This document shows, one piece after another, positions 19,911 to 35,032 of a stretch of DNA of 46,834 nucleotides (positions are counted from its first letter, which is position 1; each line of letters opens with the position of its first letter). A program made the translations under genes and the position numbers. The notes beneath the pieces were generated by a model, which worked only from the letters and a program-made list of their open reading frames with translations, had not been told where the DNA came from and ran no database searches. The DNA is from an uncultured Lentisphaerota bacterium (lineage in GTDB: Bacteria; Verrucomicrobiota; Lentisphaeria; Victivallales; GWF2-50-93): assembly GCA_903872565.1 (NCBI GenBank), contig CAIQLG010000165.1, positions 1-46,834 on the forward strand, given 5' to 3'.

Positions 19911-21689
19911 TTATTGTTTTCTTGTGATAATCCAGTTGCCGACCACGAGAACATCGAGTTCTGAGTTGAGATAGACATCAATTGAATCGCAGGCACCGAG
20001 GACGATCGGAAAGCCGTGAAGATTGAATGAGGTGTTCAAAACTGCGGGGATTCCGGTTTTTTGATAAAACTTGGAGATGATGTCGTAAAATTCCGGGTAT
20101 ATTTTGGGGTTCACTGTCTGTGCGCGGGCAGTCTTGTCCGCCTGATGGACACCAGCAATTATTTTGTCCGCCATTTCAGGTTTCACATTGAAGGTGAACA
20201 TCATATATGGTGAATAACAAGTTTTTATACTTTCGGGGAGATCCACGGCAAGTTCGAGTTTATCCTCGAGAGCCGCCGGTGCGAACGGCATCCAGAAATC
20301 GCGCTTCTTGATTGCTGCATTGATTTTATTTATGATTTTGACATCGTCCGGCGAGGCTAGAATAGAGCGGTTTCCGAGTGCTCTCGCCCCAAATTCCATT
20401 TTCCCTGTACAGCGGGCGATGATTTTGCCAGCAATAAGCAGTTCCACTATTTTTTCATTTATGTTTTCAAAATGCTTGAAGTTCACTTTGTCAGCATATT
20501 TTTTCTTGGCCTCATCAATATCGGAACTCCCTTCTGGTCCCAGACAAAAATCGCCGAATTCTATGTCAGGTGAGTTTTTCCCCCTCGCTTCCTGATATGC
20601 GAGGAATGCCGCTCCGAAGGCATTGGTCTCATCTCCGCAGGATGGAAAGACATTTACGAATTCAACTTCTGGGAGTTCTGAAATGAGCTTATTGGCCTTG
20701 ACATTCATGAAAAAGCCGCCGGAAAGAAGAATTTTCCTTATCCCAGTCTTTTTGATACCTGCCTTGATCCAGTTCAGCGCCACATCCTCGGCCATCAGTT
20801 GCAGCCCGGCCGCAAGGGTGTCAAAACGGATATTCAATACGGATTTGAAGAGATCCTCTATAAGCTTCTGCTTTTCCACACCACGCGAATTTTGCACATT
20901 CTCATATTTCTCGCCATTTGTGAAGATGAGTCCATCCTTGTGGTCGAATCCGACAAACTGCATTATTATTTTTTTTGCGACATTCGCATACTTTAGTTGG
21001 GCATAAGGTGCCATTCCCATGAGTTTGTATTCGTGTTCGTGAGGCATAAACCCCATTATGTATGTTATGTGAGCATAGATGCACGCCGGGGAAAATGAAT
21101 CGGAAGCCGCTATTTCGGTAAGTTTGCCGTTCTCTCCAATAAAGACTGCGCTGGTTCTGCCATCACCACCACCGTCAAGGCTAAAAACTAGATATTTTTC
21201 GTCCTTATTTTTTGCGAGTCCATAATATGCGGATGCGGCATGAGACAGATGATGGTCATAACGTTTTTCCTTCTTGTCTAACCCGACCTCTTTCAAATAA
21301 TCCTCGAGAACCTTTTCTTTTTTGGGCTCTTCTGAAATTTTAGAGAATTTCTTGATTCCAATCCCTGCCTTTTCCGCGAATTTCGCAAAAATGTTCCCAG
21401 AGGAGCCAAACCAGTCTTTTTTTATCTTGTCATAGCGGTTATGGAACTTTTGCAGATCTTCTTCGCGACTCTGAGCTATTTTAGAGTTTTTGCCACCTAT
21501 AGCAACGACATCTATGTCTTTCATTTCAAGATTTTGCGAGTCCAGCGCAGCCTGGATTGAAAGAACCGGAAACCCGGGCTGGTTTTTAACTTTCGACAGC
21601 CTTTCCTCCTGAACACCAAAAACAGCCTTATTGTCCTTCATCAGAACGACAGAAGAGTTAAGACCGGTATTTATTCCTAAAATGAGCAT
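19911..21689 (-). CDS. NodU/CmcH-family carbamoyltransferase
   Basis: This 592-residue enzyme would transfer a carbamoyl group from carbamoyl phosphate to a sugar or other hydroxyl. The two domains of the NodU/CmcH/TobZ family are complete. The N-terminal Kae1-like ATPase domain has GINTGLNSSVVL, HHLSHAASAYY (metal-binding histidines about residue 145-150), SLDGGGDG and LSGGFFMNVKAN. The C-terminal domain has MEFGARALGNRSILA, WMPFAPA and VLNTSFNLHG. It stands at the edge of a glycosyltransferase/methyltransferase region, so decoration of a surface glycan is the simplest role, but the acceptor is unknown. It is transcribed away from the glycosyltransferase at 22530. The ATG is at 21687-21689. 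Confidence 0.9.
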   Translation of the reverse strand: MLILGINTGLNSSVVLMKDNKAVFGVQEERLSKVKNQPGFPVLSIQAALDSQNLEMKDIDVVAIGGKNSKIAQSREEDLQKFHNRYDKIKKDWFGSSGNIFAKFAEKAGIGIKKFSKISEEPKKEKVLEDYLKEVGLDKKEKRYDHHLSHAASAYYGLAKNKDEKYLVFSLDGGGDGRTSAVFIGENGKLTEIAASDSFSPACIYAHITYIMGFMPHEHEYKLMGMAPYAQLKYANVAKKIIMQFVGFDHKDGLIFTNGEKYENVQNSRGVEKQKLIEDLFKSVLNIRFDTLAAGLQLMAEDVALNWIKAGIKKTGIRKILLSGGFFMNVKANKLISELPEVEFVNVFPSCGDETNAFGAAFLAYQEARGKNSPDIEFGDFCLGPEGSSDIDEAKKKYADKVNFKHFENINEKIVELLIAGKIIARCTGKMEFGARALGNRSILASPDDVKIINKINAAIKKRDFWMPFAPAALEDKLELAVDLPESIKTCYSPYMMFTFNVKPEMADKIIAGVHQADKTARAQTVNPKIYPEFYDIISKFYQKTGIPAVLNTSFNLHGFPIVLGACDSIDVYLNSELDVLVVGNWIITRKQ

Positions 21690-21731
21690 ATCTCAGACCT
21701 TTCTTTTTAACGGATTTCTCCATTTCAAATA

Positions 21732-21976
21732 TCAATTTTTCCCTTCTTCCTCAAGCACTGACACCAATTCACTGATATTGTCCCCCAAAATACCCTTTTT
21801 TAGACCAAGATTTCTGGATTCCGTGCAATACTGCCTTGAAGCACATGTATTGGTGACATCATCAATTCCCTTTCTGAGAGCCTCGTTGACCACCATTTTG
21901 GAAGGGCGATGAAGGGGACTGATAGCTTTCTCGCCTTCTCTAGGACATCATCATCAATTGCAACAGTTGTTCTCAT
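21732..21976 (-). pseudogene. Frameshifted VapB-type antitoxin, no toxin
   Basis: The N-terminus MRTTVAIDDDVLEKARKLS is the ribbon-helix-helix opening of VapB-like antitoxins. The frame then drifts into unrelated sequence. One base out of phase the rest of the family continues: HRPSKMVVNEALRKG, then an RNLGLKKGI segment, then NISELVSVLEEEGKN and a stop at 21732-21734. A single-base deletion (or two-base insertion) near codon 20 explains both halves. The toxin that should follow is absent: the carbamoyltransferase starts... ends its coding on the next position of this strand at 21689. This is therefore a relic of a toxin-antitoxin locus. The assignment is by recalled motif. Confidence 0.7.
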
Positions 21977-22038
21977 GCACACACAGTAGCATCACTTAAA
22001 ATGATGTAAAGTCATCATTATTGAAATCCTGTTTTTTG

Positions 22039-22153
22039 GTAATGCGTCAGTCTTTGGCGATGGAGGGCCACGCTCTCTGTCGTGGCCTTAGGCAGACGCG
22101 ACGGAGCGCGTCCCTCCAACAAGGTCATTTGCCGGAAAAGACTGATGCATTAC
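22039..22153. repeat. Structured palindromic element, copy 1 (two hairpins with complementary loops)
   Basis: Outer arms GTAATGCGTCAGTCTTT (22039-22055) and its inverse (22137-22153) match at 16 of 17 positions. Inside, TGGAG (22061-22065) pairs with CTCCA (22114-22118) and encloses two hairpins: GGCCACG/CGTGGCC (22066-22087, loop CTCTCTGT), a seven-base linker, and GACGCG/CGCGTC (22095-22112, loop ACGGAG). The two loops can pair over six bases with one G-U. A second copy lies at 34837-34958. Non-coding. It occupies part of the 550-bp gene-free stretch 21977-22529 together with the element at 22333-22459. Confidence 0.8.
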
Positions 22154-22332
22154 TTATGTATTTCTATTTTTTTATTGCAAAAACGGTTGTCAATGCGATA
22201 TTCAACATGACAAAAGTCCTTATTTTCAAAGGAAAATACGTGATTTTGTATTTTAATCGTTTGCGTCACTTGCGCCGCTCGCGTTAAGAAATTAAACGCT
22301 AAAGACGCAATAGTCACTATAGTATAAAAATA

Positions 22333-22459
22333 TTGAGTCCAAGGCCAATGTTGCTAAGTTAAGCCTGAATTTGAGTAACTCGGGAAATCTCTCCGAGGAA
22401 AGTCGCGGGGTGGTACCCCGCGTTACTTGGCTTAACTTAGTGACATTCAGTCCAAGGCC
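22333..22459. repeat. Second structured palindromic element flanked by direct repeats
   Basis: Outer inverted arms 22349-22365 and 22429-22445 share CTAAGTTAAGCC and match at 15 of 17 positions. Inside, AGTAAC/GTTACT (22374-22379, 22422-22427) encloses two hairpins: CTCGG/CCGAG (22379-22397) and CGCGGGG/CCCCGCG (22404-22422). Immediately outside are 14-base direct repeats, TTGAGTCCAAGGCC (22333-22346) and the same with one change (22446-22459), like a target duplication. The plan is the same as the 22039 element, but the sequence is unrelated. A smaller GTAGG/CCTAC hairpin follows at 22488-22501. Confidence 0.75.
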
Positions 22460-22529
22460 TGTTATGTTCCTGTCTGACATTTCGCAGGTAGGGATGCCTA
22501 CGCTACTTTCCAAATATACTGGTGTAAAC

Positions 22530-33252: not shown

Positions 33253-34839
33253 ATGCGTTACGCGATAATTTCCGATATTCACGCAAATAGACAGGCTTTG
33301 AAGGCTGTCCTCACCGATATCCAGGGCATCGGAGCCGAAAAAATAATTTGTCTCGGAGACCTCGTGGGATATGGACCATGCCCGGAAGAAGTCCTTGAAA
33401 CAGCCTACAGCAGAATTCATCATTTTGTCCTTGGAAACCATGATGCAGTTGTGTGCGGGAAAATGTCATCTGACCTGTTCAACGACAGAGCCAGGAAAAT
33501 AATAGACTGGACGGTTTCGGTACTCAACGAAAAGGCATCAAGATTCTTCAAGAGTGTTCCTCTTGTTCTTGTTGGAAATGATTTCAGATGCACCCACGGC
33601 GAGTTCCAGGATCCGGGCCGATTCGGATACATAATAGACGAAAAGGAAGCGAGTGAATCATTTGCCTCGTGTTCCGAAAAAATTCTCTTCGCAGGCCACA
33701 GCCACAGCCCATGTATCTTCGTGATTGGAGAGAGTAAAATACCGCATCTGATAGAATCCCAGGATTTCACGATCGAAGATGAAAAAAGATACATAGTCAA
33801 TGCCGGTTCCGTTGGCCAGCCCAGAGACAATGACATAAGAGCGTCCTACTGCATATTTGACACTTCTCAACAATCCGTAATGTTCCGGAAAGTGCCTTTC
33901 GATATTGATTCATATTGCGCCGACCTCCAGAAAAGGAAAATCCCGGAATCAGCCAGCTATTTTATTGGAATTTACAGAAATCAGCCAGTCCAGCCAATCA
34001 GAGACATCCTGGATTTCGGCAGAGTGAAGGCGGAAGATGCCGTGAGAACCGCCGCAGATGTCAAAAACCTCGAGGAAACAGTCAAAAGCCTGAGAAAAAC
34101 CGTCATAATACTTGTTCTTCTCTTCCTTCTTGTCGGCGGTGCTACCGCCACGGGAATATACAAGTACGTGGAACACAGCGAGAATACAAAGCAGGAACTA
34201 TCGGTCAAAAATATCGAGAAGGAAAACGAACTCACTCAAAAAACGGTTGAACTCAGCAGAACCGAAAGCGAACTCAGCAAATTTAAGAAGACTATTTACA
34301 TACCGACCGGAGATTCACTAATAAAAGATTTCAAGCCGGATCAGGAACTGGTTTCAATGCCGAAGAAAGTTGGTAAAGTTTCGCACACCCATCCCGCTGG
34401 AATATGGACTGTCACTGTAACCAATCCAGAACAGCAGACTGTCACCATCGAAACCATAAATGACAAGAAATACGGTGAGATAAATGTTTTCAGGATAGTA
34501 TCGAATGAACCAACATTGCTGGAAATCGCGTCGGCACCTGTAGATGCAAAAGCTGGAATGAGGTTTACTTCAAACTGCCAGATGAGACAAAAAGGGCTCG
34601 AAACCGGGTTTGTCGGTATTTATTTGGAAGAGGAACTTGGATCCGGTGTGAAAAAAATACTGGAACAGAACATACCGGAACTGAGGAAATATACTTCAAA
34701 ATGGACTTCCGGAACGTCTGTCACTATTCTAAAGAAAGATCCCATTTTGGAAGCGGGCAAACTCCGTTTTGTAATCCGTGGCCAGTTCAAGGGCGAAATC
34801 TTCGTCAGAAACTGCAGCCTAAAGGAAAAAAATAAATAA
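33253..34839 (+). CDS. Metallophosphoesterase - TM - extracytoplasmic domain fusion
   Basis: A 528-residue chimera. Residues 1-240 are a calcineurin-like metallophosphoesterase of the YfcE/diadenosine-tetraphosphatase type: SDIHAN (residue 7), LGDLVGYG (about 34), LGNHD (about 58), CTHGEF and FAGHSHSP. All metal ligands are in place. A transmembrane helix follows at about 283-305 (VIILVLLFLLVGGATATG), then a coiled coil to about 350. The last 170 residues are beta-rich and resemble a jelly-roll carbohydrate-binding domain (WTVTV, WTSGTSVTIL, GEIFVRNCSL). The topology implies a cytoplasmic esterase tied to a periplasmic sensor or binder. Such a fusion is unknown to me. The last codon overlaps the repeat at 34837. 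Confidence 0.78.
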   Translation: MRYAIISDIHANRQALKAVLTDIQGIGAEKIICLGDLVGYGPCPEEVLETAYSRIHHFVLGNHDAVVCGKMSSDLFNDRARKIIDWTVSVLNEKASRFFKSVPLVLVGNDFRCTHGEFQDPGRFGYIIDEKEASESFASCSEKILFAGHSHSPCIFVIGESKIPHLIESQDFTIEDEKRYIVNAGSVGQPRDNDIRASYCIFDTSQQSVMFRKVPFDIDSYCADLQKRKIPESASYFIGIYRNQPVQPIRDILDFGRVKAEDAVRTAADVKNLEETVKSLRKTVIILVLLFLLVGGATATGIYKYVEHSENTKQELSVKNIEKENELTQKTVELSRTESELSKFKKTIYIPTGDSLIKDFKPDQELVSMPKKVGKVSHTHPAGIWTVTVTNPEQQTVTIETINDKKYGEINVFRIVSNEPTLLEIASAPVDAKAGMRFTSNCQMRQKGLETGFVGIYLEEELGSGVKKILEQNIPELRKYTSKWTSGTSVTILKKDPILEAGKLRFVIRGQFKGEIFVRNCSLKEKNK

Positions 34840-34958
34840 TGCGTCAGAGTTTTTCTGCAAATGGCTTTTTTGGAGGGACGGCTTCCACGCCGTCCACTCG
34901 TGGTCGGGGTGGAACCCGACCCTCCACCCAAGCAAAAAAACATTAAACTGACGTGTTA
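34837..34958. repeat. Structured palindromic element, copy 2
   Basis: Outer arms start TAATGCGTCAG (34837) and end with CTGACGTGTTA (34948-34958), inverse with two mismatches. Inside, TGGAG/CTCCA (34871-34875, 34922-34926) encloses GGACGGC/GCCGTCC (34876-34895, loop TTCCAC), the seven-base linker ACTCGTG and GTCGGG/CCCGAC (34903-34920, loop GTGGAA). The two loops are exact complements. The left arm, inverted, matches the right arm of copy 1 (22112 onward) at 33 of 41 positions by my count, so the copies are in opposite orientation. It abuts the stop codon of the metallophosphoesterase fusion. Confidence 0.8.
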
Positions 34959-35032
34959 CGAAAAAAGCGGATTCATTACAATAATAATATTAAAAACCTA
35001 ATTGTTGTGCAATATTAAACAAAAAAGCATTT

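Follow-up and report, generated by a model that had tools for sequence, protein, structure and literature searches.

The window analysed here, a 46,834-nt stretch of contig CAIQLG010000165.1 from an uncultured Lentisphaerota bacterium (assembly GCA_903872565.1), holds two look-alike elements in which a pair of hairpins is enclosed by inverted arms, and it raises the question of whether this layout is that of a folded RNA or of mobile DNA. The initial annotation had left both open, proposing a folded three-way junction with kissing loops that would belong either to a mobile palindromic element or to a structured RNA. We now consider it highly probable that the elements are composites, with the ends of an IS66-type MITE and a REPIN interior, in which the unit was likely moved by an IS66 transposase, encoded at another place in this genome, after a RAYT had likely placed the REPIN. 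REPINs are inverted pairs of REP hairpins, and RAYTs the transposases described with them (Bertels and Rainey 2011, PMC3116915; Nunvar 2010, PMC2817692).

The window copies and their number in the genome

Two look-alike elements are indeed present where they had been placed, with the bounds of copy 2 now set at 34836-34959 (Table 1), and every feature described for them was found in both copies: the common arms, an inner stem of TGGAG/CTCCA and a pair of hairpins. From the outside inwards, each copy consists of 13-bp inverted ends, short arms and a core of 54-56 nt, within which the order is GGAG, a 7-bp hairpin, a linker, a 6-7-bp hairpin and CTCC. The earlier description of one 7-bp and one 6-bp hairpin per copy holds overall, except that the second hairpin of copy 2 has 7 bp (GGTCGGG/CCCGACC); similarly, the CTCTGT given as a loop of copy 1 is contained in a first loop that is really 8 nt long (CTCTCTGT). 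The termini of copy 1 are GTAATGCGTCAGT and ACTGATGCATTAC, with 0 and 1 mismatch relative to GTAATGCGTCAGT, and those of copy 2 have 2 mismatches in each 13-bp end.

Table 1. Positions of the two composite elements and their parts in the window. E-values are from covariance model R1, which was built from 34 cores that include those of copies 1 and 2.
Feature	Position	Strand	Description
Composite element, copy 1	22039..22153	.	115 bp; IS66-type MITE shell and class b REPIN core
Copy 1 left terminal inverted repeat	22039..22051	+	GTAATGCGTCAGT
Copy 1 right terminal inverted repeat	22141..22153	-	reads GTAATGCATCAGTCTTTTCCGGC inward
Copy 1 REPIN core	22062..22117	-	class b, GGAG heads, CTCYGT loops; E 5.1e-11
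Copy 1 REP 1	22062..22087	+	GGAG, GGCCACG stem and 8-nt loop
Copy 1 REP 2	22095..22117	-	GGAG and hairpin, CTCCGT loop
Composite element, copy 2	34836..34959	.	124 bp; IS66-type MITE shell and class a REPIN core
Copy 2 left terminal inverted repeat	34836..34848	+	ATAATGCGTCAGA
Copy 2 right terminal inverted repeat	34947..34959	-	GTAACACGTCAGT
Copy 2 REPIN core	34872..34925	+	class a, GGAG heads, TTCCAC loops; E 5.2e-13
Copy 2 REP 1	34872..34895	+	GGAGGGACGGCTTCCACGCCGTCC
Copy 2 REP 2	34902..34925	-	GGAGGGTCGGGTTCCACCCCGACC

Upstream of copy 2, a calcineurin-like phosphoesterase frame (33253-34839) takes its stop codon, TAA (34837-34839), from the first bases of the element; thus, the insertion may have trimmed or replaced the original end of this gene. 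A scan for a simple intrinsic terminator around copy 1 (21600-22500) found none.

The covariance-model search that had been suggested for the genome recovered the two-hairpin core at 88 or more distinct places, far more than the two copies first seen, such that the element is multi-copy and spread through the genome in the manner of a REPIN. The count is a lower bound, because 150 of 1960 candidates were scored, and it results from merging 145 model matches into 88 distinct places, as most matches score on both strands. The underlying alignment comprised 33 cores found by pattern together with that of copy 1; it omitted opposite-strand duplicates, two chance matches (L072 and L053:2558) and a core with an insertion (L076), and interrupted cores such as L017, L028 and L029 escaped its search pattern. 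Simple pattern searches of the genome gave a similar picture: the first hairpin of copy 2, 24 bases long, is found at 23 places with up to 3 mismatches (0 for the reversed control), and the 13-bp end ACTGACGCATTAC at 80 places when up to 1 mismatch is allowed, compared with 9 matches to its reversed pattern. Within the window, TAATGCGTCAG alone at up to 2 mismatches showed no enrichment (14 matches, 10.2 expected); unlike single ends in the window, end sequences are enriched genome-wide and in pairs.

The outer layer and its partner element

Inverted ends GTAATGCGTCAGT/ACTGACGCATTAC, both no more than 170 bp away, enclose 54 of the at least 88 core places, where 0.26 would be expected by chance from shuffled flanks. 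Five further core places have one shell end and 29 have none; among the latter, five lie in another shell and two beside a RAYT gene, and many look like eroded shells when judged by eye. Target duplications could be assessed at 53 of the 54 two-ended places, the remaining one being too near a contig end. The bordering 8-mers share a mean of 5.70 of 8 bases, compared with 2.57 for mismatched pairs (n = 53), and 28 of the 53 pairs are identical at 7 or 8 positions, against an expectation of 0.27. Mean identity between the flanks is 0.712 at a length of 8 and at most 0.447 at every other length from 3 to 12, and from this sharp peak we conclude that the family inserted with an 8-bp target duplication. 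The window copies themselves have weak duplications (3 of 8 bases identical for copy 1, 5 of 8 for copy 2), leaving their age or their exact ends uncertain.

Of three matches to IS66 transposases in the genome, one belongs to an apparently complete IS66 element of 2863 bp (G000:C121:10417-13279) with a perfect 35-bp inverted repeat, GTAATGCGTCAGTCTTTTCCGGCGCATAGAGGCGG, which opens with the 13-bp end of the shells and is bordered on both sides by the duplication AATTCAAT. Its 500-aa product passes the cut-off of the curated IS66 transposase model NF033517 (198.5 vs 180 bits), and the right arm of copy 1 is identical to the element at 22 of its first 23 bases. Such closeness is uncommon: with up to 2 mismatches allowed, those 23 bases are matched by an end of only 10 of the 92 paired-end shells in the genome, at least one of them counted through the element's own end, which indicates that most shells have drifted or stem from a related element. 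A second IS66 copy, on contig C385, encodes a TnpC that is 85% identical, and one of its ends was found at up to 1 mismatch.

As a side observation, the C121 element carries a DUF6788 gene beside tnpC (L034, 3002-3301), whose counterpart in the C385 copy is 65% identical. It also has an open reading frame of 191 aa with no Pfam or NCBIfam match (L034, 772-1344). Typical IS66 elements have tnpA and tnpB genes.

Elements of the IS66 family have ends of 20-30 bp that open with GTAAGCG, and 8-bp direct repeats (PMC11946415). Because the ends are paired, 8-bp duplications border them and an IS66 element with the same ends resides in the genome, we identify the outer layer as an IS66-type MITE, in which the shared ends extend over the outer 13 bp and the 8-bp repeats hold for the family as a whole. 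The proposal of a mobile palindromic element is therefore borne out in two layers, the outer one with IS66-type ends and 8-bp duplications and the inner one a REPIN. Neither an empty shell nor a new transposition event was seen.

The REPIN interior and its RAYT genes

The core divides into two REPs, each made up of a GGAG head and a hairpin, the stem being about 7 bp long and the loop usually 6 nt. The two REPs are alike in kind and lie on opposite strands, so that the core has the two inverted REPs, each a head tetranucleotide plus a hairpin, of which a REPIN consists. Two classes are represented in the window, class a (copy 2) with a TTCCAC loop and class b (copy 1) with a CTCYGT loop. The GGAG head differs from GTAG, which is named as the most frequent head in PMC8266576.

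A transposase associated with the copies had been suggested as a further check, and two kinds came to light: the IS66 element with the same ends, and RAYTs accompanied by the same REPIN classes. Five genes in the genome exceed the cut-off of NF047646 (REP-associated tyrosine transposase); four are adjoined by head-plus-hairpin repeats, and the fifth, on contig C38, has a shorter-stem repeat on both sides. The RAYT gene on contig C286 (90.3 vs a cut-off of 80) is the one adjoined by the REP class of copy 1: one class b REPIN lies about 10 bp past its stop codon, and another lies over the first codons of the longest frame, ahead of the matched domain. Both of these REPINs are naked, with 7/5 and 6/6 mismatches out of 13 at the positions of the shell ends. 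A genome scan with Y1_Tnp (PF01797) missed this gene, at 20.5 bits against a cut-off of 23, and NF047646 caught it. On contig C305, a second RAYT gene (96.3 bits) has GTAG-headed REPINs, termed class c, on both sides.

No RAYT gene adjoined by class a REPINs was found among the NF047646 matches in this assembly, the completeness of which is 93.57. The nearest cases are RAYT homologues in two other MAGs (L108 and L147), whose genes have class a REPs within or around them. The L108 and L147 proteins are 48% and 45-47% identical to the C286 protein, respectively, and L108 has both TTCCAC and CTCCGT/CTCTGT REPs. At these two loci (L108, 3488-4048; L147, 4001-5401), REPs were also noted within the RAYT gene or between its duplicated pieces.

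The 92 paired-end shells of the genome divide into 27 with class a cargo, 31 with class b, 12 with class c and 22 that are other or unclear, with no REPIN recognised in them, the last group including some chance pairs of ends. Duplications with 7 or 8 of 8 bases identical border 16 of 27 class a, 14 of 31 class b, 2 of 12 class c and 3 of 20 other shells. The 24-nt inner arm TCTTTTCCGGCAAATGGCCTTTTT, at up to 5 mismatches, is present in 15 of 27, 16 of 31, 4 of 12 and 0 of 22 shells in the same order, and in 0 of 1840 shuffled controls. Class c REPINs are mostly found elsewhere: 1 of 30 sampled has both shell ends, with 12 of the 30 lying near contig ends.

Pairing, origin and spread of the composite

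The stem covariation noted between the two window copies is real. Overall, 95.9% of 611 stem cells are paired, compared with 85.3% in shuffles, and 80 are changed on both sides, with slid alignments never above 49.9%, much of this signal being owed to the single split between classes a and b. In 48 stretches from named genomes, we considered hairpins with a GTGKAA loop and a CTCC tail and excluded 50 that were matches to the search pattern; 30 of the remaining 42 are fully paired, in 9 stem sequences, against 7.2 with shuffled partners (maximum 15 in 1000 shuffles). The corresponding figure of 80 of 92 was set aside in favour of 30 of 42, as 50 of those 92 are the search pattern itself.

The complementarity of the loops, which had been read as a sign of kissing, follows from REPIN symmetry, by which one loop sequence recurs in the two REPs, once on each strand. 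Loop cells are still paired in 92.6% of cases, and the whole-loop covariation score, strong at first sight, reflects mostly one split, class a versus class b. Within classes (17 + 17 sequences), 1 loop change is compensated, 6 are one-sided and still paired, and 15 are broken; stem changes within classes number 7 compensated, 10 one-sided and 25 broken (34 sequences). The within-class loop test is a weak one, since stem changes too are mostly broken and 92.6% of loop cells pair, and it leans against kissing loops, for which we see no support beyond REPIN symmetry. In single-stranded DNA folding, copies 1 and 2 are far more stable than 200 shuffles (z -7.1 and -5.6, respectively), and the minimum-energy fold of both is one long hairpin, with the REP halves paired together, in place of the three-way junction. 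Kissing loops and the three-way junction were set aside accordingly.

How such a composite may have been put together can be outlined from these features. The TnpC of the IS66 element would move the short copies in trans; for MITEs, action of a full element's transposase on short copies is usual. The REPINs would have entered the shell by RAYT action on its folded apex, several times, rather than by recombination. Both REPs keep the loop that a RAYT would be expected to read, on opposite strands, and the apparent kissing-loop match may be a by-product of this retention; the hairpins would then act as single-stranded DNA during REPIN movement and not as RNA. TnpAREP enzymes bind single-stranded REPs and cut them beside the structure; in E. 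coli the cuts are made at CT dinucleotides (PMC8266576). Entry by a RAYT fits both this mode of cutting and the REP dimers housed in palindromes (PMC3733652). The composite was likely spread by an IS66 transposase, with the REPINs acquired earlier and more than once.

Selection for an RNA with a three-way junction and kissing loops would account for the covarying stems and for the between-class covariation of the loops, most cells of which remain paired, although inverted symmetry alone predicts the complementarity of the loops. Their changes within classes are mainly broken (1 compensated vs 15), though those of stems tend likewise, and the lowest-energy DNA fold is the long hairpin. Rfam has no match for the element, its sole match in the window being a tRNA, and the ends and target duplications indicate mobility of DNA; we therefore regard the RNA reading as very improbable. 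Equally doubtful is a plain REPIN or BIME family moved by a RAYT, in which the outer arms would be nothing more than conserved flanks of the REPIN. A class b RAYT gene does occur in the same genome, as this explanation would predict, but the copies that adjoin it lack the shell ends. Those ends match the ends of a full IS66 element and have 8-bp duplications next to them, and REPIN classes unrelated to each other occur between the same arms.

For the entry step, the leading alternative retains the IS66-type MITE shell and has the hairpins arise or be exchanged by recombination or gene conversion between palindromes, without a RAYT. Classes a and b have a common GGAGGG start and arm junction, and mixed interiors and deletion products do occur (L037, L070), which speaks for such exchange. 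It sits poorly, however, with classes c and d (the latter from a relative described below), which differ in heads, stems and loops and each have copies beside a RAYT of their own, and with the class a REPs that are found without this shell in named genomes. We consider recombination unlikely and favour entry of the REPINs by RAYT action.

One type of shell carries three REPIN classes in this genome and a fourth in a relative. We tentatively suggest that the folded apex of IS66 MITEs might serve as a landing pad for RAYT-moved REPINs, refilled repeatedly by whichever class the genome holds; the result would be a two-transposase composite in which the class a and b REPINs of this genome may now be spread mainly by a double-strand (DDE) transposase and not by the RAYT. 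The usual view of REPINs is that they are passive, vertically inherited and dependent on a single transposase, domesticated and acting on single strands. If REPINs are carried by IS66 shells, a second and quite different route of REPIN spread exists, and REP copy number and position are therefore not readable as RAYT activity alone. The interiors of MITEs are often unexplained, and REPIN cargo would be a source for them; the same shell with four REPIN classes makes a clean test case.

REPINs, RAYTs and MITEs are all known kinds of element. The present elements resemble REPIN/RAYT systems in their inverted REP hairpins, short head, many copies and RAYT with the same REPs beside it, and differ from the REPINs described in the sources cited above in that most of the class a and b copies found here sit in an IS66 shell with 8-bp duplications. 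They are like IS66-derived MITEs, judged by the IS66 features given in PMC11946415, in having 8-bp repeats, GTAA-type ends in common with an IS66 element of the genome and a length that leaves no room for their own transposase gene; unlike these, the interior is no recognisable remnant of an IS deletion but a REPIN with its own dedicated transposase family. With MITEs in general (PMC10969869) they share being non-autonomous and short, with inverted repeats at both ends; the terms IS66, REPIN and RAYT do not occur in the main text of that review. There is precedent for REPIN dimers inside palindromes, namely the GTAG-15 dimers of Anabaena variabilis and the CGTC-1 dimers of Halothiobacillus (PMC3733652), where, as here, REP dimers lie within a longer palindrome of shared consensus. 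In section 7 of that paper, the palindromes are tied to no insertion sequence and target duplications are not discussed, whereas the present shell is linked to IS66 and its cargo comprises several REPIN classes. Searches of open-access PMC text showed no account of an IS66 MITE with a REPIN in it, within which the IS66 shell, its duplications and its multi-class REPIN cargo appear to be undescribed.

The shell has a distribution beyond this genome. When the own genome is counted, a 17-base end at up to 1 mismatch is present in 14 of the 137 genomes from the order and in 7 of the 8 from the family, with single matches being near noise (three genomes show one reversed-control match each). A class a shell occurs in genome G001 (L093). 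In G006, shells carry a fourth REPIN class, the GTAG-headed class d, with 8/8 duplications at L282 and L283, and a further shell (L257), also with a perfect duplication, has a different hairpin interior. A RAYT gene with class d REPs on both sides (L319) occurs in G003, which belongs to the same genus as G006. In a groundwater Lentisphaerae MAG (L152), a GTAG REPIN lies beside one perfect end, with the flanks GAATCAAC/GAATCAGC identified by eye. The class a 24-mer, at up to 2 mismatches, is found in 3 of 60 genomes, own included; class a REPs are thus patchy among near relatives, though present in named genomes, where the 24-base REP of copy 2 also occurs and class a REPs lie without this shell. 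Matches to class a REPs come from Verrucomicrobia, Lentisphaerae, Kiritimatiellales, Pelagicoccus, a Phycisphaerales MAG, a MAG labelled Eisenbacteria and other MAGs. Separately, RAYT-like matches with E up to 0.001 number between 11 and 19 in each of G003, G005, G006 and G007, a rich set with many REP classes.

Several other repeats with hairpin cargo were observed along the way. About 190 bp from copy 1, the window contains a member of a second mobile-looking family (22347-22447), with 19-bp inverted ends (AATGTTGCTAAGTTAAGCC) and an interior of two inverted hairpins with GTAAC heads; an 11-bp direct repeat, AGTCCAAGGCC, lies at its left end and one base past its right end. Among 30 loci, out of 39 places in all, this family has at least 10 distinct copies; several of these show direct repeats, roughly 10-12 bp long by eye. 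The family follows the same plan of ends plus facing hairpins in a different type of transposon. Class a REPINs also lie in a different shell, with arms AAGTCTTTCCGCA / TGCGGAAAGACTT (L005, 1501-1554; L021, 571-624; L022, 571-624; with a partial REPIN at L017, 601-624, and in interrupted form at L195, 143-233), and the class a REPIN therefore travels in another repeat too. A third repeated context, CTTAACCGGCT..GGGACT / GCCATACGGCATTCC (L221, L222, L230, L231 and others), encloses 15 of 30 sampled class c REPINs when a loose pattern is used. Finally, at L038, L041, L046 and L058, a 55-bp palindrome, GTAATGCGTCAGTAACCTCGCC..GAGGCATTAC, is nested at one shell end with small changes.
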